Origin: Haloglomus litoreum
GTDB lineage: Archaea; Halobacteriota; Halobacteria; Halobacteriales; Haloarculaceae
DNA: 64,000 nucleotides
Assembly (NCBI RefSeq): GCF_029338515.1
Contig: NZ_CP119988.1
Location: 4,092,001 to 4,156,000 of the forward strand
Reading direction: 5' to 3'
The notes beneath the pieces are model-generated. The model had not been told where the DNA came from, made no database searches, and saw nothing but the letters and a program-made list of their open reading frames with translations. The first letter of the stretch is position 1; each line of letters begins with the position of its first letter. This document shows positions 11,457 to 54,989 of the stretch, piece after piece. The translations under genes and the position numbers were made by a program.

Positions 11457-11597
11457 GACGCCCCGAGAGGTTCGGGTACGGAACCGGCGACACGGCGGAC
11501 GGAACTGGCGACTCGTCTCCCCGTCCCGACCCCGGGAGCGGGGCGGACGCGAGCGCGGTTGCCCCGCAGACCGCCCGCTCCGATGCCACACAGACCG

Positions 11598-12401
11598 ATG
11601 ACCGGACTCACACCAACCCACGACGAGATCGAACGGATTCAGGACCGGATGGCGACGAACAGATTCGACGACATCCGGGCGGTGTCGATCAGATACCTCA
11701 CGCAGCCGTCCATCGTGGACCGCCTGCTCCCGCCGGGGCTGGAGCCGACCGACGAGCCGCTGGTCGAGGCCGAGGTCGTGACCGTCGGTCGGAGCAACTG
11801 CGTCGGCGCATTCGCGGGCGGTGGGTTGTACGTTCGGGCCCAGCACGACGGCGAGGTCGGGAACTACTGTCTGACGATGCCGATGTCAACCGACGAGGCG
11901 GTTCGGTGGGGCCGGGAGCTGCTCGGCGAGCCGAAGCGGCAGGCGAGTGTCGAGCTAGAGCGGAACGGCGACGAGATCAGCGGCCACATCACCCGGCACG
12001 GTGAGCCGCTCCTCGGTATCGAGGCGACCATGGAGTCCCGCCGGGGCAGTAGCACCGGCTCGCAGTCGGTGTTCCACTACAAGCATCTGCCCGCCGTGAC
12101 CGGCCGAGGGTTCCAGTTCGACCCGGTGCTGGTGCGGGTCCGTTTCGCCAGCGAACTGGACCGGGTCGAGACCGGTACCGGGTCGATACGTCTGGGACGG
12201 ACCCCCCACGCTCCGCTCGACCGCATCGAGGTCGCGAACGTCCGCGGCGCCTCCTACTACGAGGGGCGCCTCACCTCGAGCCAGGAGGAACTCACCACGG
12301 TCGACCCGGACGAGTTCCTCCCGTACGCGCTCGGAGGGCCGGGCACGTACGACTGGCTCGCACTGGACAACCTGTCGGAGTCGTCTTCGTCCCGTCCGTA
12401 G
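11598..12401 (+). CDS. Acetoacetate decarboxylase family protein (divergent copy)
   Basis: This 267-residue protein is a second lineage of the ADC superfamily. The segment WGRELLGEPKRQASVEL (about 104-120) matches the classical catalytic segment more closely than the other two copies and keeps Lys113. It is only distantly related to the proteins at 7164 and 19192. The ATG at 11598 is one of several close candidates, so the first 10-30 residues are uncertain. It lies divergently from carboxyltransferase 1 and upstream of an enoyl-CoA hydratase. Confidence 0.8.
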   Translation: MTGLTPTHDEIERIQDRMATNRFDDIRAVSIRYLTQPSIVDRLLPPGLEPTDEPLVEAEVVTVGRSNCVGAFAGGGLYVRAQHDGEVGNYCLTMPMSTDEAVRWGRELLGEPKRQASVELERNGDEISGHITRHGEPLLGIEATMESRRGSSTGSQSVFHYKHLPAVTGRGFQFDPVLVRVRFASELDRVETGTGSIRLGRTPHAPLDRIEVANVRGASYYEGRLTSSQEELTTVDPDEFLPYALGGPGTYDWLALDNLSESSSSRP

Positions 12402-17378: not shown

Positions 17379-19094
17379 ATGGAAGTGACCGGTGATTTCG
17401 AAGGGATGTCCGAGGAGGAGCAACTCGCGGTAGCGACGTCCCTCTCGAACCATTTCGGGACCGACATCCATCTGCTGGACGAGAACAGCGGACGGGTCGT
17501 GGCCACCAGGGAACGCGTCGGCCTCCCGCGACGCCGGTCCATGGACGGGGTCGAACCGGCGACCGAGCGCGAACGGGAGGTCCTAGCGGACATCGAGGAG
17601 ATACTGCAGGGGGGTCCGGAACGCGGGCACCGGAAGATCGCGGAGATCGGCAAGCGGTTCGTGCGTGACCGCATCGACCAGATGTTCGACGAGCTCCTCT
17701 TCGAGGACGGGACGTTCGCGGAGTACGACAGCGAGGAGAACCTGGCCGCGGATGCCATGATCACCGGTGCGGGGCTCATCGACGGCCGGAAGCTGTTCTT
17801 CGCTGCGAACGACTTCACCGTCAAGGCCGGGACCATCGCGAGCCAGTCCATCGAAAAACTGGTCCGGATACAGGAGCACGCCATCGAGGCGAAGGCGCCC
17901 ATCCTCTACCTCATCGACTCCGCCGGCGGCCGGATCGACACCCAGGCGGACAACTACGCGAACCGGTACATCGGCGGGCGACAGTTCTACAACCAGTGTC
18001 TGATGTCGGGCCGGGTCCCTCAGATCGCGGTGATGTACGGCCCGAACTTCGCCGGGACCGCCTATCAGCCCGTGTTCGCCGACTACCTCATCATGGTCAG
18101 GGACATCAGTACGATGGCGATCGCGAGTCCCCGGATGGTGGAGATGGTCACCGGGTCGGAGGTGTCCAAGGAGGAGCTCGGGGGCCCCGAGCTGCACGCG
18201 CGTCACTCGGGGAGTGTCGATATCATCGCGGCGGACGAGGACGACGCCTACAGGACGGTCCACCGGCTCCTCGGCTACCTCCCACAGAACTATCGGGATA
18301 CCCCTCCCCGAGTGACTGCCCGACCGCCGAGCGAGTCCCCGGCGTCGACGGACACCGTGATCCCGGACGAACCGAACGCGCCATACGAGATCCAGGACCT
18401 CATCCACCACCTCGTCGACGACGGCTCCCTGCTCGAACTGAAGCCAGAGTTCGCGCCGGAGATGGTGACGGCGCTGGCACGGATCGATGGCCGTTCCGTC
18501 GGGATCCTGGCGAACCAGCCCGCGGTCAAGTCCGGCGCCATCTACCCGGCGTCGAGCGAGAAGGCAGCCGGGTTCGTCTGGCAGTGTGACGCACTCAACA
18601 TCCCGCTGCTGTACCTCTGTGACTCACCGGGGTACATGGTCGGGAAGCAGGTCGAACGCGACGGGGTCCTCCAGAAGGGGCGGAAGCTGGTCTACGCGAC
18701 CTCCTGTGCCACGGTACCGAAGATCTCCGTGCTCCTCCGGAAGGCGTACGGTGCGGCCACGTACGCGATGGCCGGGCCGGCGTTCGGGACGGACTCGGTG
18801 CTCGCCCTCCCCAGTACGGAGATCGCAGTGATGGGTCCCGAGGCGGCGGTGAACGCGATCTACGCGAACAAGCTGGCGGAGATCGACGATCCGGAGGAGC
18901 GAGCGCGGCGGGAGCGAGAACTCCGTGAGGAGTACCGAGAGGACATCGACATCCGCAAGCTCGCATCGTCGATGGTCGTCGACGAACTCGTGCCGCCGCG
19001 TGACCTCCGTGCCGAACTCGCCAACCGGTTCGAGATGTACGCCGACAAGGAGAAACAGCACCCGGGGCGCAAGCACGGTGCGATGTTGTTCTGA
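17379..19094 (+). CDS. Acyl-CoA carboxylase carboxyltransferase (beta) subunit 2
   Basis: This 571-residue carboxyltransferase belongs to the same family as the 9803 gene but is clearly distinct. It shows the N-half AANDFTVKAGTIASQSIEKLVRI and YGPNFAGTAYQ, and the C-half CDSPGYMVGKQVERDGVLQKGRKL with AYGAATYAMAGPAFG. The N-terminus has an extra segment of about 85 residues (MEVTGDFEGMSEEEQLAVAT onward) compared with short homologues. The TATA box places transcription start close to the ATG. The different substrate loops suggest a different acyl-CoA from subunit 1. Confidence 0.9.
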   Translation: MEVTGDFEGMSEEEQLAVATSLSNHFGTDIHLLDENSGRVVATRERVGLPRRRSMDGVEPATEREREVLADIEEILQGGPERGHRKIAEIGKRFVRDRIDQMFDELLFEDGTFAEYDSEENLAADAMITGAGLIDGRKLFFAANDFTVKAGTIASQSIEKLVRIQEHAIEAKAPILYLIDSAGGRIDTQADNYANRYIGGRQFYNQCLMSGRVPQIAVMYGPNFAGTAYQPVFADYLIMVRDISTMAIASPRMVEMVTGSEVSKEELGGPELHARHSGSVDIIAADEDDAYRTVHRLLGYLPQNYRDTPPRVTARPPSESPASTDTVIPDEPNAPYEIQDLIHHLVDDGSLLELKPEFAPEMVTALARIDGRSVGILANQPAVKSGAIYPASSEKAAGFVWQCDALNIPLLYLCDSPGYMVGKQVERDGVLQKGRKLVYATSCATVPKISVLLRKAYGAATYAMAGPAFGTDSVLALPSTEIAVMGPEAAVNAIYANKLAEIDDPEERARRERELREEYREDIDIRKLASSMVVDELVPPRDLRAELANRFEMYADKEKQHPGRKHGAMLF

Positions 19095-19191: not shown

Positions 19192-19956
19192 ATGACAACC
19201 GACGAAGGATGGATGCTACCGACCGGTGCGCCGGCCATCCCGCCACCGCCGTATCGCTGCGAGCCGGAGTCGAAGTACATGTACGTCTTCTACGACCGGC
19301 CGGACGACGTGCTCGAGCGGGCGGTCCCCGAGCCACTGGAACTCGCACAGGGTGACGGCCCCCGCGTCCGCATCGCCATCGGGGACCCCATCCAGCCGCC
19401 ACACACCCACACGCGCTACCACGAGGGCATCGTCTCGGTGAAGGTCGAGTTCGATGGGCGGATGGGGTGGTACCTGCCGTACATCTGGACCAACAACGAC
19501 GAGGCGATGGACGCCGGTCGGCTGTACGGCTGGTACAAGCAGTACTGCGACGATACGCCCATCCGGATCGACGGCAACCGCATCCGCGGTGACCTCGAAC
19601 GCGACGGGGACCCGATCATCAGCGTCAAGTTCCGGTCGACCAGCGCGCCCGGCGAGGAGGACGCGCTGGCCGAGCGACTGGGCGACCTGTTCGAGGGGAC
19701 CGTCTACGGCGTGAAGAAGGTGCCCAGCCCCGAGAAGGGCGGGAAGGTGCTGAAGCAGGTCGTCGCCACCGACCTCGAGGACGTGGTGATGCACGAGATC
19801 TGGGGCGGCGACGCGACGGTCGAACTCACCCCGACCCCGAAGTACCCGTTCCTCCACGAGTTCCAGCCCGACCAGGGCGACATCGTCGCGGCCTTCTACG
19901 CCCGGCCGGAGTTCATCCTCCCGTACGGGGAGGTCCTCTGGGACCGGTACGAGTAG
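19192..19956 (+). CDS. Acetoacetate decarboxylase family protein (copy 2)
   Basis: This 254-residue protein is a close paralogue of the 7164 product: same length, same start (MTTDEGWMLP), and most positions identical, including GRLYGWYKQY with the putative Schiff-base Lys116. Differences cluster in the first 30 residues and in a loop near 155-175 (ALAERLGDLFEGTVYG versus ALLKRLAELFEGPSYG). It converges tail-to-tail with the B12-binding subunit gene nine bases away. The reaction is unassigned, as for copy 1. Confidence 0.85.
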   Translation: MTTDEGWMLPTGAPAIPPPPYRCEPESKYMYVFYDRPDDVLERAVPEPLELAQGDGPRVRIAIGDPIQPPHTHTRYHEGIVSVKVEFDGRMGWYLPYIWTNNDEAMDAGRLYGWYKQYCDDTPIRIDGNRIRGDLERDGDPIISVKFRSTSAPGEEDALAERLGDLFEGTVYGVKKVPSPEKGGKVLKQVVATDLEDVVMHEIWGGDATVELTPTPKYPFLHEFQPDQGDIVAAFYARPEFILPYGEVLWDRYE

Positions 19957-20408: not shown

Positions 20409-22064
20409 TCAGTGTTTCGCGTAGCTGGCCGTCGCCTCGACGTCGCCGAAGACCTCCCAGAGGGCCCCGGTCACCTCGCCGACGGTCACGCCCGCCGCGA
20501 CCGCCTCGACGACGCGCTCGAAGACGTTCTCGTCGCCCCGGGCCGCGGTCTCGATGGCCTCGATGGCCGCCGTCGCGGCCGCCTCGTCCCGTTCGGCCCG
20601 GACGCGCTCGGTCCGTGCGATCTGCCGGTCGACCTCCTCGTCCGGCACCGTCAGTTGTGGGGGCTCGGCGGTGCCGTCGTCCCCATCGACGTAGCGGTTC
20701 TCGCCGACCCGGACGACCTCCCCCTGCTCGACCTTCCGCTGGTACTCCCGGGCCTCCTCACGGACGACCCGCTGGGGGTAGCCCTCGGCGACGGCCTCGT
20801 AGTAGCCGCCGTACTCCTCGATCCGGTCGAGGTACTCGCGGATGCGGTCGGCCAGGTCGTCGGTCAGCGACTCGACGAAGTACGACCCGCCCAGCGGGTC
20901 GATGACGTCTGCGGCGTCGGTCTCCTCCAGCAGGACGTGCTGGGTGTCCATGGCGATCGTGGCGGCCTCCTCGCTCGGCGCCCGGAACGGCTCGTCGTAG
21001 GCGTCCGTGTGGAGCGACTGCGTACCACCGAGGACGGCGGCGAGCGCCTGGATCGCCACCCGGGAGACGTTGTTCGTCGGTCGCGCACTGGTGAGCTCCT
21101 GGCCGTCGGTCTGGCAGTGACAGCGCAGCCGGGCGTGCTCGGGCGCCACGTCGAACCGGTCGGTCAGCTCGCGGGCCCAGACCCGGCGGGCGGCGCGGAG
21201 CTTCGCCACCTCCTCGAACAGGTTCATCGAGACGTTGAAGAAGAAGGTGAACCGCTCGGCGCAGTCGTCCGGGTCGAACCCAAGGTCGACCGCCTCCTCG
21301 AGGTACTCGATGCCGGCAGCGATGGTGAACGCGGCCTCCTGGGCCGGCGTCGCCCCGGCCTGCTGGATGTTCTGCCCGGTGAGGCTGACGGGGTTCCACT
21401 TCGGCAGGTGCTCCAGCACGTACTCGAGGTGGTCCCGGAACAGCCGGCGGTGCGCTTCCTGCGGGAACCGGGTGAACATCCGCGCCCCGACGAGCTTGTT
21501 CAGGTAGTCCGAGTGCATCGTCGTCCCGGCGAGGGCCTCGCGCGCGACGCCCCGCTCGTCGGCCAGCGCGACGTGCATCGCCACCAGCTCGTGTGGCGAG
21601 ACGTCCCCGAGCGCACAGGAGACCTCGCCGATGGGGATCCCGTCCATGGCGATGCGGTGGTCGGCCAGCGAGTCGATCATCGCGCCGGTCTGCCCGACCA
21701 GCTCCCGGTCCACGTCAGCGGTGTCGAACCCGCGGAACGTGGGGTTGTCGCCGCCGTAGCTCACCCCCGTCTGCCCGCGGTCGAGGAACGTCCGGAGCCG
21801 CTCGTTGGTCGCCTCGACCGTCCGGAAGCAGATGATGTTCCGCCGCGTCCACGGCCGGCCCCGATACATCGTTGTGTACGGCCCGCGCGTGTACGGGAAC
21901 TCGCCGGGATAGCCGATGTCCCGCTCGGGGTCGGCGGCCACGTCGTCGGCGGTGTACAGTGGCTCGTACGGAAGGCCCGACGCCGACTCGAACGTGCCCT
22001 CGCGCTCGGGGACCCGGTCGGTCGCTGCCCGATACCGTTCGTGCCAGTCTTCGTCCCCACTCAT
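20409..22064 (-). CDS. Acyl-CoA mutase large subunit with altered active site
   Basis: This 551-residue protein is a B12-dependent acyl-CoA mutase catalytic subunit by overall fold (TRGPYTTMYRGRPWT, TNNVSRVAIQALAAVLGGTQSLHTDAYDE, DVIDPLGGSYFVESLTD). Key residues differ from methylmalonyl-CoA mutase. The Tyr89 position is Ile77 (RNIICF), the Arg207 position is Ala194, and the Tyr243-His244 pair in SGYHxxEAG is Gln231-Asn232 (TGQNIQQAG). The carboxylate-binding and general-acid residues are therefore missing, so it should not be annotated as methylmalonyl-CoA mutase. It is followed at two bases by its own B12 subunit. The substrate is unknown. Confidence 0.85.
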   Translation of the reverse strand: MSGDEDWHERYRAATDRVPEREGTFESASGLPYEPLYTADDVAADPERDIGYPGEFPYTRGPYTTMYRGRPWTRRNIICFRTVEATNERLRTFLDRGQTGVSYGGDNPTFRGFDTADVDRELVGQTGAMIDSLADHRIAMDGIPIGEVSCALGDVSPHELVAMHVALADERGVAREALAGTTMHSDYLNKLVGARMFTRFPQEAHRRLFRDHLEYVLEHLPKWNPVSLTGQNIQQAGATPAQEAAFTIAAGIEYLEEAVDLGFDPDDCAERFTFFFNVSMNLFEEVAKLRAARRVWARELTDRFDVAPEHARLRCHCQTDGQELTSARPTNNVSRVAIQALAAVLGGTQSLHTDAYDEPFRAPSEEAATIAMDTQHVLLEETDAADVIDPLGGSYFVESLTDDLADRIREYLDRIEEYGGYYEAVAEGYPQRVVREEAREYQRKVEQGEVVRVGENRYVDGDDGTAEPPQLTVPDEEVDRQIARTERVRAERDEAAATAAIEAIETAARGDENVFERVVEAVAAGVTVGEVTGALWEVFGDVEATASYAKH

Positions 22065-39646: not shown

Positions 39647-41674
39647 ATGGTCGCGCCAGATCTATCGACGGAGCGTGGACGCCGCGCAGTGCTCGAGCGG
39701 ATGTTGACGATTCGCGAGTTCGACGACGAGGTCGGCGAGCGGTTCTCCGACGGCGAGATCCCCGGCTTCGTCCACCTCTACCTCGGCCAGGAGGCGGTCG
39801 CCGTCGGCGCGACGGCGGCGCTCGACGAGGACGACTACATCACCAGCACCCACCGGGGTCACGGCCACTGCATCGCGAAGGGGCTCGACCCGTCGACGAT
39901 GATGGCCGAGATATACGGCCGGGAGGCGGGCTACTGCTACGGCAAGGGAGGGTCGATGCACATCGCGGACGTGGACGCGGGGATGCTCGGCGCCAACGGT
40001 ATCGTCGGCGCCGGGCCACCCATCGCGACGGGGGCCGGCCTCTCGATCGACCTGGCCGACGACGACGACCGCGTCGCGCTGGCGTTCTACGGCGACGCCG
40101 CCGCCGCCGAGGGGCCGGTCCACGAGGCCATCAACCTCGCGGCGGTGTGGGACCTGCCGGTGGTCTTCCTCATCGAGAACAACCAGTACGGCGAGGCGCT
40201 GCCGTTCGACCAGCAGTTCAACGTCGAGCAGCTCTCGGAGATGGCCGCCGCCTACGGCATCCCGGGAGAGACCGTCGATGGGATGGACGTGGGGGCGGTC
40301 CACGAGGCGGTCGACGCGGCCCGGGAACGGGCGCTCGCCGGTGAGGGACCGACGCTCGTCGAAGCCGAGACCTACCGCTATCGGGGCCACTTCGTCGGCG
40401 ACCCGGAGTCCTACCGCGACGAGGCCGAGGTCGAGGAGTGGCGCGAGCGCGACCCGCTCCGCTCGTTCCGGGCGGAACTGGTCGAGCGCGGCGAACTCAC
40501 CGACGCCGAGTTCGAGGACCTCCGCGCGGAGGTCCGGGAGCGCATCGCCGACGCGGTCGAGTTCGCGAAGGCGGCCGAGGAACCGGACCCGCAGCGCGCG
40601 TACACGGACGTGTTCGACGAACCCGCCCCGGAGATCGAGCGGTTCAGCGGCCACGACGTGGGCGCCTCGCGCCCACCGGTGCCGGACGCGCCGACCGAGA
40701 CGGAGTCGATGACGTTCCGGGCGGCCATCCGGGCGGCCCTCCGCGAGGAGATGGCGCGCGACGAGGACGTGTTCCTGCTCGGCGAGGACGTGGGCGCGTT
40801 CGGCGGCGTGTTCAACGTCACCGCCGGCCTCCGCGAGGAGTTCGGCGCCGACCGAACACGGGACACGCCGCTGTCCGAGGCCGTCATCGTCGGCGCCGGC
40901 GTCGGCGCGGCGGCGACCGGCACCCGGCCCGTGGCCGAGATCATGTTCTCCGACTTCATCGGCCTCGCCACCGAGCAGATCACGAACCAGGCGGCGAAGA
41001 TGCGCTACATGTTCGGCGGGAAGGTCGACATGCCGCTCACCGTCCGGACGACCGAGGGGGGCGGGATGGGCGCCGCGAGCCAGCACTCCGGGACCGTCCA
41101 CTCGTGGTTCGCCCATGCGCCCGGCGTGAAGGCCGTCACGCCCGGGACGCCGGCCGCCGCGAAGTCGCTGCTGAAGGCGAGCATCCGGTCGGAGGACCCG
41201 GTCGTCTTCTTCGAGAACAAGACCCAGTACGACCGGGAGGGTGAGGTCCCGACCGACCCCGACCACGTGGCGCCGCTGGGCCGGGCCTCGGTCGAGCGCG
41301 AGGGCGCCGACGTGACCGTCGTCGCGACCCAGCGGCTGGTCGGGGAGTCGCTGTCGGTCGCCGAGGACCTCGCCGGCGACGTGGACGTGGAGGTCATCGA
41401 CCTCCGGTCGCTGTACCCGCTGGACACGGGGACCATCGTCGAGAGCGTCGACAAGACCAACCGCGTGGTCGTCGCCGACGAGAGCCCGCTGTCGTACGGC
41501 ATCCACGCCGAGGTGACCACCCGGCTCGTCGAGGACGCCTTCTTCAGCCTGGAGGCGCCGGTCCAGCGCGTCGGCGTCGCCGACACGCCCATCCCGTTCA
41601 GCGGCGGCCTCGAACGGGAGGTGCTGCCCGGCGCCGCCGACGTCCGCGAGGCCATCGACCGGGTAGCGCGATGA
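39647..41674 (+). CDS. Fused E1 alpha-beta subunit of a 2-oxoacid/acetoin dehydrogenase
   Basis: This 675-residue protein joins both E1 halves in one chain. The alpha part (1 to about 335) has GQEAVAVGATAAL, THRGHGHCIAKG and the TPP block GDAAAAEGPVHEAINLA with ENNQYG. The beta part begins near Met355 (MTFRAAIRAALREEMARDEDV) with LLGEDVGAFGGVF, DTPLSEAVIVGAGVG and the histidine loop GAASQHSGTVHSWFAHAPG. The motifs resemble acetoin dehydrogenase AcoAB more than the 3215-5316 E1 pair. The cognate E2 is probably the OsmC fusion on the opposite strand (42254). It overlaps the VOC gene by four bases. Confidence 0.93.
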   Translation: MVAPDLSTERGRRAVLERMLTIREFDDEVGERFSDGEIPGFVHLYLGQEAVAVGATAALDEDDYITSTHRGHGHCIAKGLDPSTMMAEIYGREAGYCYGKGGSMHIADVDAGMLGANGIVGAGPPIATGAGLSIDLADDDDRVALAFYGDAAAAEGPVHEAINLAAVWDLPVVFLIENNQYGEALPFDQQFNVEQLSEMAAAYGIPGETVDGMDVGAVHEAVDAARERALAGEGPTLVEAETYRYRGHFVGDPESYRDEAEVEEWRERDPLRSFRAELVERGELTDAEFEDLRAEVRERIADAVEFAKAAEEPDPQRAYTDVFDEPAPEIERFSGHDVGASRPPVPDAPTETESMTFRAAIRAALREEMARDEDVFLLGEDVGAFGGVFNVTAGLREEFGADRTRDTPLSEAVIVGAGVGAAATGTRPVAEIMFSDFIGLATEQITNQAAKMRYMFGGKVDMPLTVRTTEGGGMGAASQHSGTVHSWFAHAPGVKAVTPGTPAAAKSLLKASIRSEDPVVFFENKTQYDREGEVPTDPDHVAPLGRASVEREGADVTVVATQRLVGESLSVAEDLAGDVDVEVIDLRSLYPLDTGTIVESVDKTNRVVVADESPLSYGIHAEVTTRLVEDAFFSLEAPVQRVGVADTPIPFSGGLEREVLPGAADVREAIDRVAR

Positions 41675-42165
41675 CGGTTCCGGACCTGGACGTGTCGCTG
41701 CCGGCGCTCGACCAGGTCGGGTTCGTCGTCCGTGACCTCGCGGACGGCGCCGAGCGGTTCCGCTCGGTCCTGGGTGTCGGCCCCTGGGCCGTCTGGGAGT
41801 TCGAGCCCCCGGCGCTCACCGAGCGGACCTACCGGGGGGACCCCGCCCGGTTCACCATGCGCATCGCCATCGCCACCGTCGGGGATCTGATGCTGGAGCT
41901 TATCGAGCCCGTCGACGGCCCCAGCATCCACCGCGACTTCCTCGACGACCACGGCGAGGGGCTCCACCACATCGCCTGCTTCTCCTTCGAGGACACCGAC
42001 CAGGTCGTCGAGGCCATGGCCGACGCCGGGGCGCCGGTGGTCCAGCGCGGCCGGTTCGGCGAGTCGACGTTCGTCTACCTCGACACGACCGACCTGCTGA
42101 ACGGCGTCCTGTTCGAGACGGGGACGGCCCCCGATGCGGTTCCCGAACCCGACGGCCAGCTGTGA
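41671..42165 (+). CDS. VOC-family (glyoxalase/epimerase-like) metalloprotein
   Basis: This 164-residue protein has two vicinal-oxygen-chelate repeats. Likely metal ligands are His/Glu residues in LDQVGFVVRDL, LMLELIEP and GLHHIACFSF, the same layout as methylmalonyl-CoA epimerase. The overlap with the fused E1 gene (ATGA) links it to that complex. Whether it is an epimerase, a lyase or an isomerase is not decidable from motifs alone. Confidence 0.85.
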   Translation: MTVPDLDVSLPALDQVGFVVRDLADGAERFRSVLGVGPWAVWEFEPPALTERTYRGDPARFTMRIAIATVGDLMLELIEPVDGPSIHRDFLDDHGEGLHHIACFSFEDTDQVVEAMADAGAPVVQRGRFGESTFVYLDTTDLLNGVLFETGTAPDAVPEPDGQL

Positions 42166-42253: not shown

Positions 42254-44005
42254 CTATTCGACCCGTTCGACGCTGACATCGAGGTCCTCGCGGAGCAGGT
42301 CCGCGACGAAGCAGCCCCGCTCGGCCAGGTCGACGATGCGGTCGAGCGTGTCGGCGTCGGCGTCCGCATCGACGGCGACACGGATCACGATGGACTCCAG
42401 TTTCCCCTTCTTCGGCGTTCCCGAGACGTCCACGTCCACGCTCTCGAGGGCCACGTCGCGGATGTCGGCCTGGTACTCGACGCTGAGTGCGAGACAGGCC
42501 GCCAGCGACCCCAGGAACCGGTCGACCGGCGTCGGGGCGGTCCCGCCCCCGCCGGCCTCGACGGGCTCGTCCACCTGCCAGGCGAACCCCCCGGCACGCA
42601 CCTCGCCGTGCATCCCGCCGCTCGTGTGCGCGCTGACCTCGCGGTCGGGCATCGCCGGTCCGCCCGCAGGTGTCACGCCCTCGGGGAGGAGCGTCGCCGG
42701 TGATTCGAGCCGTGTCGCGAGCGTGTCGAGGAAGCGCGCCGCGTCGGCCCCGTCGACGGCCCGGTGGTCGAACGAGAGGTCCAGCCCCAGCTGCCGGCGG
42801 ACCGTCACCGCGTCCCCCTCGCCGTCGGGGTCGGGCACCGCCCGCTCGCGGACCCGGTCGACGCCGAGGATGGCCACCTGCGGCGGGTCGATGACCGGCG
42901 TGAAGCTGTCGGCACCGAACGGGCCGAGGTTGGAGAGCGTGAACGTCCCGCCGGAGAGGTCGTCGGCGTCGTAGTCGCCGGCGACGACGTCCCCGACGAG
43001 GTCGCGGCGGGTCGCGACCACCTCGCCCAGCGACCGCTCGTTCACCGCATCCAGCACCGGCGTCACGAGACCGCCCTCGACGTCGACGGCCACGCCGAGG
43101 TTGTGTTCCTCGTACAGGCGGAGCGTCTCGTCCTCGACGGTCGCGTTGAACTCGGGATGGTCGTCGAGCGTCCGCGAGACGGCGACCAGCAGCAGGTCCG
43201 TCAGCGTGGTCTCCCCGTCCACCTCGGCCCGCGCGGCGTCGACCGCCGCCATCGCCGCCTCGGCGTCGAGTTCGCGGTGGACGGTCACGTGGACGGCCTC
43301 GCGGGCGCTCCGCCCCAGCCGCTCGGCGATGGTCCGGCGCATCCCGTCGAACGGGCGCTCCTCGCGGACGGTCCGACCCGCATCGTCGGTACGGCCCGTA
43401 CCATCGCCGCCCCCGGACGGCGCGTCTTGGTCCCCGGCCGGCGTGTCGTCGGCAGCCTCGCGTGCCTCCGCCGCCCGTCGGATGTCGTCGGCGCCCACCG
43501 CACCCTCGAAGCCCGTTCCCTCGACGGTCGCCGGGTCGACGCCGAGTTCCTCCGCGACCTTGCGTCCCCGTGGCGTGACCTTCGTCTCGCCGGCGGTGTC
43601 GTCGGTATCCGGGTCGTCGCCGTCGGCATCGGCGTCGGCTGTCGCGCCGCCATCGGGGCCGGCGTCGGCTGTCGCGGCGGGGGCCGCGGCGCTGGCATCG
43701 GCGTCCCGGTCGGGCAGGTCGTCCAGCTCCGCGGTCGCCTCGGCCGCCAGGTCCGCGACATCGGCGCCGTCGGTCGCGACGATACCCATCGGGGTCCCGG
43801 GCGGGACCTCGTCGCCCGGCTCCAGGTAGGTCCGGTCGAGGACGCCGTCCTCCCGGGCCGGGACCTCGGCCCGGGTCTTCTCGGACTCGATCTCGGCGAT
43901 GACCTCGTCCTCGGTCACCGCGTCCCCCTCGGCGACGTGCCAGTCGAGCAGGACCCCGGACTCCATCTCCATGCCGAGCTTCGGCATGCGGACTATGTAG
44001 CTCAC
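42254..44005 (-). CDS. Lipoyl acyltransferase E2 fused to an OsmC/Ohr peroxidase domain
   Basis: This 583-residue chain has a lipoyl domain (1-78, Lys43 in ESEKTRAE), a subunit-binding domain (about 143-178), an E2 catalytic domain (about 215-445, His414 and Asp418 in FDHRAVDG), and then, with no stop, an OsmC-type domain (about 452-583). OsmC residues include MHGEVRAGGFAW, the cysteine in GSLAACLALSVEY (Cys504) and the second cysteine in AERGCFVADL (Cys565). The GTG start at 44005 gives MSYIVRMPKLGMEMESG, the usual E2 opening, with GAACCTTTAC as TATA 26-35 bases ahead; an ATG six codons on is the alternative. OsmC/Ohr enzymes are known to use lipoylated proteins as reductant. Confidence 0.9.
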   Translation of the reverse strand: MSYIVRMPKLGMEMESGVLLDWHVAEGDAVTEDEVIAEIESEKTRAEVPAREDGVLDRTYLEPGDEVPPGTPMGIVATDGADVADLAAEATAELDDLPDRDADASAAAPAATADAGPDGGATADADADGDDPDTDDTAGETKVTPRGRKVAEELGVDPATVEGTGFEGAVGADDIRRAAEAREAADDTPAGDQDAPSGGGDGTGRTDDAGRTVREERPFDGMRRTIAERLGRSAREAVHVTVHRELDAEAAMAAVDAARAEVDGETTLTDLLLVAVSRTLDDHPEFNATVEDETLRLYEEHNLGVAVDVEGGLVTPVLDAVNERSLGEVVATRRDLVGDVVAGDYDADDLSGGTFTLSNLGPFGADSFTPVIDPPQVAILGVDRVRERAVPDPDGEGDAVTVRRQLGLDLSFDHRAVDGADAARFLDTLATRLESPATLLPEGVTPAGGPAMPDREVSAHTSGGMHGEVRAGGFAWQVDEPVEAGGGGTAPTPVDRFLGSLAACLALSVEYQADIRDVALESVDVDVSGTPKKGKLESIVIRVAVDADADADTLDRIVDLAERGCFVADLLREDLDVSVERVE

Positions 44006-52770: not shown

Positions 52771-53946
52771 ATGACTGACCTAGATTTCGGCGTCTTCACG
52801 ATGCCGGAGCACTACCCGTGGGAGAACTGGAACCTGTCGTACGACCGGGACATCGAGGAGGCGGTGCTGGCCGAAGACCTCGGGTTCGACGAGTACTACA
52901 TCGGCGAGCATCACACCGGCGGGTACGAGAACGTCCCCGTACCGGAGTACATGCTGGCGAAGATGTCCGCCGTCACCGACCGGATCAAACTCGCGCCCGG
53001 GACGGTCAACCTTCCGTATCACGACCCGTTCCTCGTCGCCGAACGCCTGGCGTTCCTCGACCAGCTCACCGACGGCCGGCTCATGTACGGCTACGGAGGG
53101 GGCGGCCTCCCGAGCGACCTGGAGATGTTCGGCGTGGGCGAGGAGAAACGCGAGATGATGGACGAGGCGATCGACATCATCCAGACGTACACCGAAGCCG
53201 AAGAGCCCACGAGCTACGACGGGGAGTTCTGGCAGTACGAGGACCGCATCATCCAGGTCCCCCCGTACCAGGAGAAGCCGGACGAGGTCATCGCTGGCCT
53301 GACCACGCTCAACAGCTACGAGCAGGCCGGGCGCGAGGGGATGTACTCCCTCTCGGTCTACTTCACTCCGCTCGAGGCGCCGGACAACCCGGCTGCTCCG
53401 GACCTCGGAGATCACGGCGATGCCCTCGAGCGTGGTGCAAAAGCCGGCGGGCGCGACCCGCAGGAGGCGAGAGAGAACTGGCGGATCGTCCGCGAGGTGT
53501 ACGTCTCGGACAGCAAGGAGCAGGCCCTGGAGGACATCCGGAGCGGCGTGGAGAAGTCGTACGGCTACCTCATCGATCTCGGTCTGGGAGCGCTGATGAA
53601 ACGCGACGAGACGCAGCCGGACGAGGATCTCACCCTCGAGTGGATGGCCGAGAACATCCCCTGGATCATCGGATCCCCGGAGGACTGCATCCGCCAGATC
53701 AAGGCGTTACAGGAGGAGACGGGGGGCTTCGGTGGGCTCATCATCAACTCCCGTGACTGGGTCACCACGGAGCAGTGGGAACGGTCGCTCGAACTGTTCG
53801 CACGGGAGGTCATGCCGGCGTTCAAGTCGAACCTCGGCCCGCGCGACTGGAGCAAGGAGAACGTGGGCTACGCCTCACCCTCGCCGACCGAGGACACGTT
53901 CGCCATCGAACCCGACTCGCCCGAGACGCCGGCGGACGACGACTGA
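52771..53946 (+). CDS. LLM-class (luciferase-like) flavin-dependent monooxygenase
   Basis: This 391-residue TIM-barrel enzyme uses reduced flavin and oxygen. The start MTDLDFGVFTMPEHYPWENW, the EHHTGGYENVPVPE loop, LTDGRLMYGYGGGGLPSD and IIGSPEDCIRQIKAL match the LLM class and resemble limonene/alkane-type members. The C-terminal tail (PSPTEDTFAIEPDSPETPA) is acidic and disordered. A reduced-flavin source could be the reductase at 51969, with FMN made by ribK/ribB next door. The substrate is inferred only by resemblance. Confidence 0.9.
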   Translation: MTDLDFGVFTMPEHYPWENWNLSYDRDIEEAVLAEDLGFDEYYIGEHHTGGYENVPVPEYMLAKMSAVTDRIKLAPGTVNLPYHDPFLVAERLAFLDQLTDGRLMYGYGGGGLPSDLEMFGVGEEKREMMDEAIDIIQTYTEAEEPTSYDGEFWQYEDRIIQVPPYQEKPDEVIAGLTTLNSYEQAGREGMYSLSVYFTPLEAPDNPAAPDLGDHGDALERGAKAGGRDPQEARENWRIVREVYVSDSKEQALEDIRSGVEKSYGYLIDLGLGALMKRDETQPDEDLTLEWMAENIPWIIGSPEDCIRQIKALQEETGGFGGLIINSRDWVTTEQWERSLELFAREVMPAFKSNLGPRDWSKENVGYASPSPTEDTFAIEPDSPETPADDD

Positions 53947-54506: not shown

Positions 54507-54989
54507 ATGACTGCCAGCGAAGAGCGGCGTCCGGAGTCGATGCTGTACTTCGAGGACCTGTCCGTCGGCGACGAATTCCCGTTCGGACCCCGCACAGTGA
54601 CCCGCGAGGAGATCGTCTCGTTCGCGGAGGCGTACGACCCCCGACCGTTCCATCTCGACGACGCGGCAGTCGAGAACTCCGTCTTCGACGGGCTGGTGGC
54701 CAGTGGCTGGCACACGGCCGCGCTCTGCACCCGGATGCAGGTCGACGACGTGTTCGACGACATCGCGGCCATGGGGGGGCGCGGCGTGAACGACCTCCGC
54801 TGGCCGATCCCCGTCCGGCCCGGGGACACGCTCTCCGGCATGGTGACGGTCGCCGACCGCCGGGTGTCGCACCACGACCACCGGGGCAACGTGGACTTCC
54901 GGACGGAGCTGCTGAATCAGGAGGACGAGCCCGTCCTCACGATGGAGAGTCTGGGGATCGTCCGGCGACGGCCGACGACCGACGCGTGA
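54507..54989 (+). CDS. MaoC-like (R)-specific enoyl-CoA hydratase family protein
   Basis: This 160-residue hot-dog-fold protein hydrates or dehydrates CoA esters. It has MLYFEDLSVGDEFPFGPRTV, the active-site block AYDPRPFHLDDAAVE (Asp and His of the hydratase-2 motif) and GLVASGWHTAALCTRM. Single-domain length is normal. The ATG at 54507 is preceded by CGAAACGG/TTAGGAGG at promoter distance. It stands before P450 gene 2 and downstream of the shared palindrome. Confidence 0.9.
   Translation: MTASEERRPESMLYFEDLSVGDEFPFGPRTVTREEIVSFAEAYDPRPFHLDDAAVENSVFDGLVASGWHTAALCTRMQVDDVFDDIAAMGGRGVNDLRWPIPVRPGDTLSGMVTVADRRVSHHDHRGNVDFRTELLNQEDEPVLTMESLGIVRRRPTTDA

Follow-up and report, generated by a model that had tools for sequence, protein, structure and literature searches.

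The locus

The window (the whole stretch of 64,000 nucleotides from Haloglomus litoreum that was analysed) carries a gene for a dihydrolipoyl acyltransferase (E2) fused to an OsmC domain, which lies beside two genes on the opposite strand. The features are as follows.

39647..41674, plus: probable partner E1, alpha and beta fused, 675 aa (Pfam E1_dh, Transket_pyr, Transketolase_C)
41671..42165, plus: VOC/glyoxalase-like protein, overlapping the E1 stop (Pfam Glyoxalase_4, 1.5e-18)
42254..44005, minus: E2-OsmC fusion gene, 583 codons, GTG start at 44005, stop at 42254-42256
43784..43993, minus: lipoyl domain, residues 5-74 (Pfam Biotin_lipoyl, 5.7e-14)
43877-43879, minus: codon of lipoyl Lys43
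43481..43582, minus: E3-binding (peripheral subunit-binding) domain, residues 142-175 (Pfam E3_binding, 1.6e-5)
42686..43363, minus: E2 acyltransferase catalytic domain, residues 215-440 (Pfam 2-oxoacid_dh, 1.6e-62)
42764-42766 and 42752-42754, minus: codons of active-site His414 and Asp418
42257..42652, minus: YhfA-like OsmC domain, residues 452-583 (Pfam OsmC, 486-579, 5.1e-16)
42494-42496 and 42311-42313, minus: codons of OsmC Cys504 and Cys565

The frame contains no internal stop, all four Pfam matches of its product exceed the curated cut-offs, and its GTG falls in the alignment where relatives begin with ATG, at the motif M-[GA]-YI[VI][RK]MPKLG. The original prediction of one uninterrupted 583-codon frame joining an E2 to an OsmC domain was therefore borne out, the strand being minus, and Lys43, His414, Asp418, Cys504 and Cys565 were all found at the residues claimed. 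A chance open frame was rejected on the strength of the domain matches and conserved residues, and a sequencing error hiding a stop was excluded as the cause of the fusion because dozens of independent genomes, complete chromosomes included, share the same in-frame architecture. With a lipoyl domain bearing an acceptor lysine and a catalytic HxxxD motif (His414, Asp418), the protein is classed as an E2 subunit by domains and residues, and its lipoylation and acyltransferase activity are predicted. The NCBIfam E2 models cover the first 440 residues, every one of them below its equivalog cut-off; the nearest NCBIfam model for the OsmC part, NF041052 (OsmC_like_Se), also matched below cut-off.

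Gene neighbourhood

Judged by its position, the E1 alpha-beta protein is the probable partner of the E2-OsmC protein. A similar 691-aa frame is present at locus L119, and other relatives have separate E1 genes. A VOC homologue adjoins many other E2-OsmC genes. The arrangement seen at most loci in haloarchaea sets the E2-OsmC gene opposite genes for VOC, an AcoX-like protein of the NAD-kinase family, E1beta and E1alpha, and a KorAB-like gene pair (named by reading) often lies on its other side. Because these usual neighbours are E1alpha, E1beta, an AcoX-like kinase and VOC, the gene context suggests an acetoin-dehydrogenase-like complex and, with it, the substrate. In Paracoccus denitrificans the AcoX homologue belongs to an acetoin cluster that also contains 2,3-butanediol dehydrogenase and an E2 bearing the name acetoin dehydrogenase. 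The window departs from the E1alpha, E1beta and AcoX arrangement of most haloarchaeal relatives in having the E1 alpha-beta fusion and VOC, and a search of its genome for an AcoX homologue found none. Immediately outside the window, a paralogous E2 without OsmC adjoins an E3 gene (L120).

Two short-chain dehydrogenases, a thiolase, a ChsH2-like protein and a hydroxyacyl-CoA dehydrogenase are encoded near the E2-OsmC gene. The window also holds a luciferase-like monooxygenase gene (52771-53946), a MaoC-like gene (54507-54989) and a P450 gene (55009-56388). The fusion had been proposed to make sense where a P450 and a monooxygenase generate peroxides; such genes are indeed present near the cluster, but the fusion is not tied to them, and a peroxide source of this kind was rejected as its reason since most relatives lie in a different neighbourhood, the E1/AcoX/VOC cluster. 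Genes for a methylmalonyl-CoA mutase (20409-22064), a carboxyltransferase (17379-19094) and two acetoacetate-decarboxylase-family proteins (11559-12401 and 19192-19956) occur elsewhere in the window, suggesting a larger catabolic island.

Distribution of the fusion

Searches covered 59 relatives and 391 Halobacteria genomes, the latter queried with the OsmC part alone. About 61 of the 391 contained an OsmC domain 40-58% identical to that of the window (E <= 1e-26), mostly within E2-OsmC proteins, and two weaker matches beyond these (L146, L147) were also E2-OsmC. Sixty regions were read for frames, 59 around OsmC matches and one (L120) around the paralogous E2 of the window's genome. A contig scan added Natronorubrum, Natronococcus, Natrinema, Halobiforma, Halogranum, Halorubrum, Halomarina, Natrarchaeobius and others, together with one bacterial MAG labelled Proteobacteria whose locus (L145) encodes E2-OsmC. 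Within the window's own family the fusion is patchy, being found in the 391-genome OsmC search only in G263 besides G000.

I then searched 148 genomes of the bacterial class of L145 and fetched 20 regions. In 19 of them a single frame encodes E2-OsmC, and in most of these E1alpha and E1beta lie immediately upstream, giving E1alpha-E1beta-E2-OsmC operons in this one class. In the remaining region (L196, 4051-5711), E2 and OsmC occupy two frames that overlap, through either a real split or a frameshift. The lipoyl lysine, a DHRxxDG-type motif and both OsmC cysteines are conserved at the bacterial loci, with the exception of L190, whose frame begins past the lipoyl lysine region. A survey for the same architecture thus yielded dozens of other archaea and 19 fetched bacterial loci in addition to L145. 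Because the same frame was found across both groups, E2-OsmC is an established and recurrent architecture in haloarchaea and one bacterial class. The fusions of haloarchaea and bacteria may share one origin, but the E2 tree joins them only weakly (90/60). The earlier statement that no E2-OsmC fusion was known to be described agrees with a search of open-licence papers, which found none; the component domains are already known.

Conservation of key residues

The relatives comprised 72 distinct proteins: 57 full fusions, 11 with a lipoyl-like domain and OsmC and no catalytic domain (hereafter truncated forms), and four with OsmC alone. Lys43 is kept in 56/57 full fusions, one full fusion having no aligned lipoyl domain, and in 0/11 truncated forms. 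His414 is present in all 57 full fusions and Asp418 in 54; the related fusions L114, L117 and L119, whose neighbourhoods are unlike the AcoX type, have Asn in its place (HRVVNGAD). Neither OsmC cysteine has been lost in any relative, the pair being kept in 57/57 full fusions and 72/72 proteins overall. Some full fusions (L130, L139, L064, L073 and others) carry a tandem pair of E3-binding-like motifs.

Class of the OsmC domain

The AlphaFold model of the OsmC domain has the OsmC fold (pLDDT 92.9). The full-length model reached a pTM of 0.48, and domain placement from it was set aside. In Foldseek searches the lowest E-value belonged to Thermoplasma Ta0195 (2onf) and the best TM-score with low rmsd to YhfA (1ml8; TM 0.85, rmsd 2.0); identity to solved Ohr/OsmC chains was ~15-26%. 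The two conserved cysteines of Ohr/OsmC peroxidases are present. The catalytic Arg and Glu of Ohr, whose roles have been described (PMC5962072), are absent: in profile alignments Xf Arg19 and Xf Glu51 align to Met/Leu and Val/Ile, Val occupies the Glu51 position in almost every member of the family, and Arg occurs at the Arg19 position in 0/57 full fusions. The conserved Pro-Val-Asp/Glu and Arg-x-Cys motifs are also unlike Ohr. A nearly invariant Asp495, one residue beyond the Val at the Glu51 position, could act as a substitute residue.

Membership of Ohr was consequently rejected, since the catalytic Arg and Glu are replaced. YhfA proteins have the cysteine pair and lack exactly these two residues (PMC8945050), and the domain resembles YhfA in this pattern and in superposition, a likeness and not a statement of descent. 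The prediction that the domain is an Ohr/OsmC-type organic-hydroperoxide peroxidase is not supported, given these replacements throughout the family and the best superposition being with YhfA; with the two catalytic residues missing, the domain may have no peroxidase activity.

A natural deletion series

All 11 truncated relatives have lost the catalytic domain and the lipoyl lysine and have kept both OsmC cysteines; their lysine-less lipoyl-like domain is still recognised by Pfam, often weakly. Natrinema gelatinilyticum and Halobiforma nitratireducens are two culturable species with such a truncated lipoyl-OsmC gene. On a tree of the OsmC domain rooted with stand-alone haloarchaeal OsmC proteins, in which few columns leave many forks unresolved, truncated forms are nested among full fusions and require eight changes, at least six of them forced by supported branches. 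The lipoyl lysine was lost together with the catalytic domain in 6/6 independent pairs (sign test, p 0.031). A comparison of two congeners shows what happened: in L100, gene families 63 and 64 flank E1alpha, E1beta, AcoX and E2-OsmC, and L115 has the same flanking families with only a lipoyl-like-OsmC gene between them, the E1/AcoX/E2 part being gone. One genus has a free OsmC (L089-L092), and OsmC-less E2s of the same clade are nested at at least three places in the E2 tree. Because truncated OsmC forms and OsmC-less E2s both occur, the two halves are separable, and since same-clade E2s without OsmC exist, the complex can likewise do without OsmC.

Most of the truncated-form genomes searched lacked the E1/E2/AcoX set, yet had lipoate synthesis and a PDH-type E2. 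One, G340, also encodes a full fusion elsewhere and gave the sole strong AcoX match among them; the additional E2 matches in G141 and G400 were partial or more distant, and the remaining genomes had a PDH-type E2 only. A fragment in G141 (G141:C5:298472-298783) is 59% identical to the fusion-type E2 catalytic domain and contains an in-frame TGA; it may be a remnant of a lost complex. Homologues of lipA were found in all genomes checked, the match in draft G385 falling below cut-off.

The dN/dS values given here are rough, synonymous sites being partly saturated. For OsmC, L084-L085 and L065-L080, the closer two of the truncated pairs, gave ~0.19 and L074-L065 gave 0.31, and by these estimates the OsmC of truncated forms is under purifying selection. 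For the lipoyl part the values were 0.26-0.33 between truncated forms, indicating relaxed constraint and not freedom from it. Because truncated lineages dropped the lipoyl lysine and kept the OsmC cysteines, the OsmC module appears to work with no lipoyl arm on the same chain, and an obligatory built-in reductant is unlikely.

Interpretation

The best explanation, to which I assign a probability of about 0.5, is an acetoin-dehydrogenase-like E2 with a C-terminal YhfA-like, two-cysteine OsmC redox module that can be reduced by lipoyl groups when fused and does not depend on them, since lineages without the complex kept OsmC. This reading builds on a fusion that is conserved in haloarchaea and one bacterial class, has its key residues intact and has repeatedly lost either half. 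The OsmC part would dimerise like other OsmC proteins, cycle between a dithiol and a Cys504-Cys565 disulfide, and detoxify some small oxidised molecule, with an organic (hydro)peroxide as the likeliest candidate. While fused, it could be reduced by the dihydrolipoyl arms of the same complex; after loss of the complex, its reductant would presumably act in trans and be either the lipoylated E2 of pyruvate dehydrogenase or a different thiol system.

A tentative alternative, which retains a real share of the probability, is that OsmC is a non-peroxidase YhfA-like domain with a substrate tied to the same pathway and not to peroxides, for instance in thiol/persulfide or acyl-thioester handling, or as a redox sensor shutting the complex down. 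The YhfA-like residue pattern and structure fit it, as do the motifs that differ from Ohr and the uncharacterised activity of YhfA itself (PMC8945050, PMC5962072), but no specific alternative chemistry is positively supported, and a pure regulator of the complex is contradicted by the retention of OsmC in genomes without one. The original prediction, that an Ohr/OsmC-type peroxidase was fused to a dedicated intramolecular reductant passing electrons from E3 via lipoyl Lys43 to the OsmC disulfide, now seems unlikely. Its biochemical premise stands, reduction of Ohr and OsmC by lipoylated proteins being established for other bacteria (PMC4486171, PMC8945050), and full fusions do keep Lys43 and both cysteines in a setting with lipA homologues and, in the same genome, an E3 gene near the paralogous E2. 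The supposed purpose of supplying reductant fared worse: the lysine is lost in every truncated form, and the free OsmC of one genus and the repeated E2s without OsmC weaken it further. Because the catalytic residues are missing and the lipoyl lysine has been repeatedly discarded, the case for a peroxidase coupled to a lipoyl reductant in the same protein falls short of being established.

It is improbable that OsmC uses organic peroxides to reoxidise the dihydrolipoyl arm, so that the complex could run with neither E3 nor NAD+, and that the lysine-less 'pseudo-lipoyl' part of truncated forms, whose fold is still constrained, has been repurposed as an OsmC docking domain. Less probable still is that two proteins are made in practice, with translation starting internally at the ATG codon for residue 452 and freeing OsmC. 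The window has that ATG, as do 29/57 full fusions, and the free OsmC proteins of one genus have an ATG at the same place. Against this, the frame is uninterrupted everywhere except at the one bacterial locus L196, and general initiation at Met452 was rejected because 28/57 full fusions have no ATG there.

Comparison with known systems

The window protein shares with acetoin dehydrogenase and PDH-type E2s the lipoyl, E3-binding and catalytic domains and the His/Asp active site (Pfam 2-oxoacid_dh), and most relatives share the acetoin-dehydrogenase-like context of E1alpha, E1beta and an AcoX-like kinase. It differs from them in its C-terminal OsmC domain and falls below the NCBIfam cut-offs for every named E2, and in the E2 tree the fusion E2s form a clade separate from haloarchaeal PDH E2s. 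With the lipoyl-dependent Ohr/OsmC peroxidases it has in common the fold, two cysteines at the expected positions and a functional link to lipoylated proteins; unlike them it is fused to an E2, has the catalytic Arg and Glu replaced and is ~15-26% identical to their solved chains. Electron exchange between Ohr/OsmC proteins and 2-oxoacid dehydrogenase complexes via lipoyl groups is known, and the E2-OsmC subunit joins the two covalently. The fusion is conserved in two distant groups, and its natural series of full fusion, OsmC-less E2, lysine-less lipoyl-OsmC and OsmC alone offers ready proteins for probing the function of YhfA-type OsmC domains and their need for a lipoyl donor.

The nearest structural relatives are YhfA, which gives the best superposition and likewise has a cysteine pair without the Ohr Arg/Glu (PMC8945050), and Ta0195, which gives the best sequence/fold E-value to the OsmC domain; both are uncharacterised stand-alone proteins, whereas the OsmC of the window is fused to an E2. 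OsmC also serves as a module in other fusions, namely alpha/beta hydrolase-OsmC (for example 400-aa chain 9wo1 and plasmid annotation H10) and OsmC-YcaO (TIGR03549), in which the partner is a hydrolase or YcaO, not an E2, and no lipoyl domain is present.
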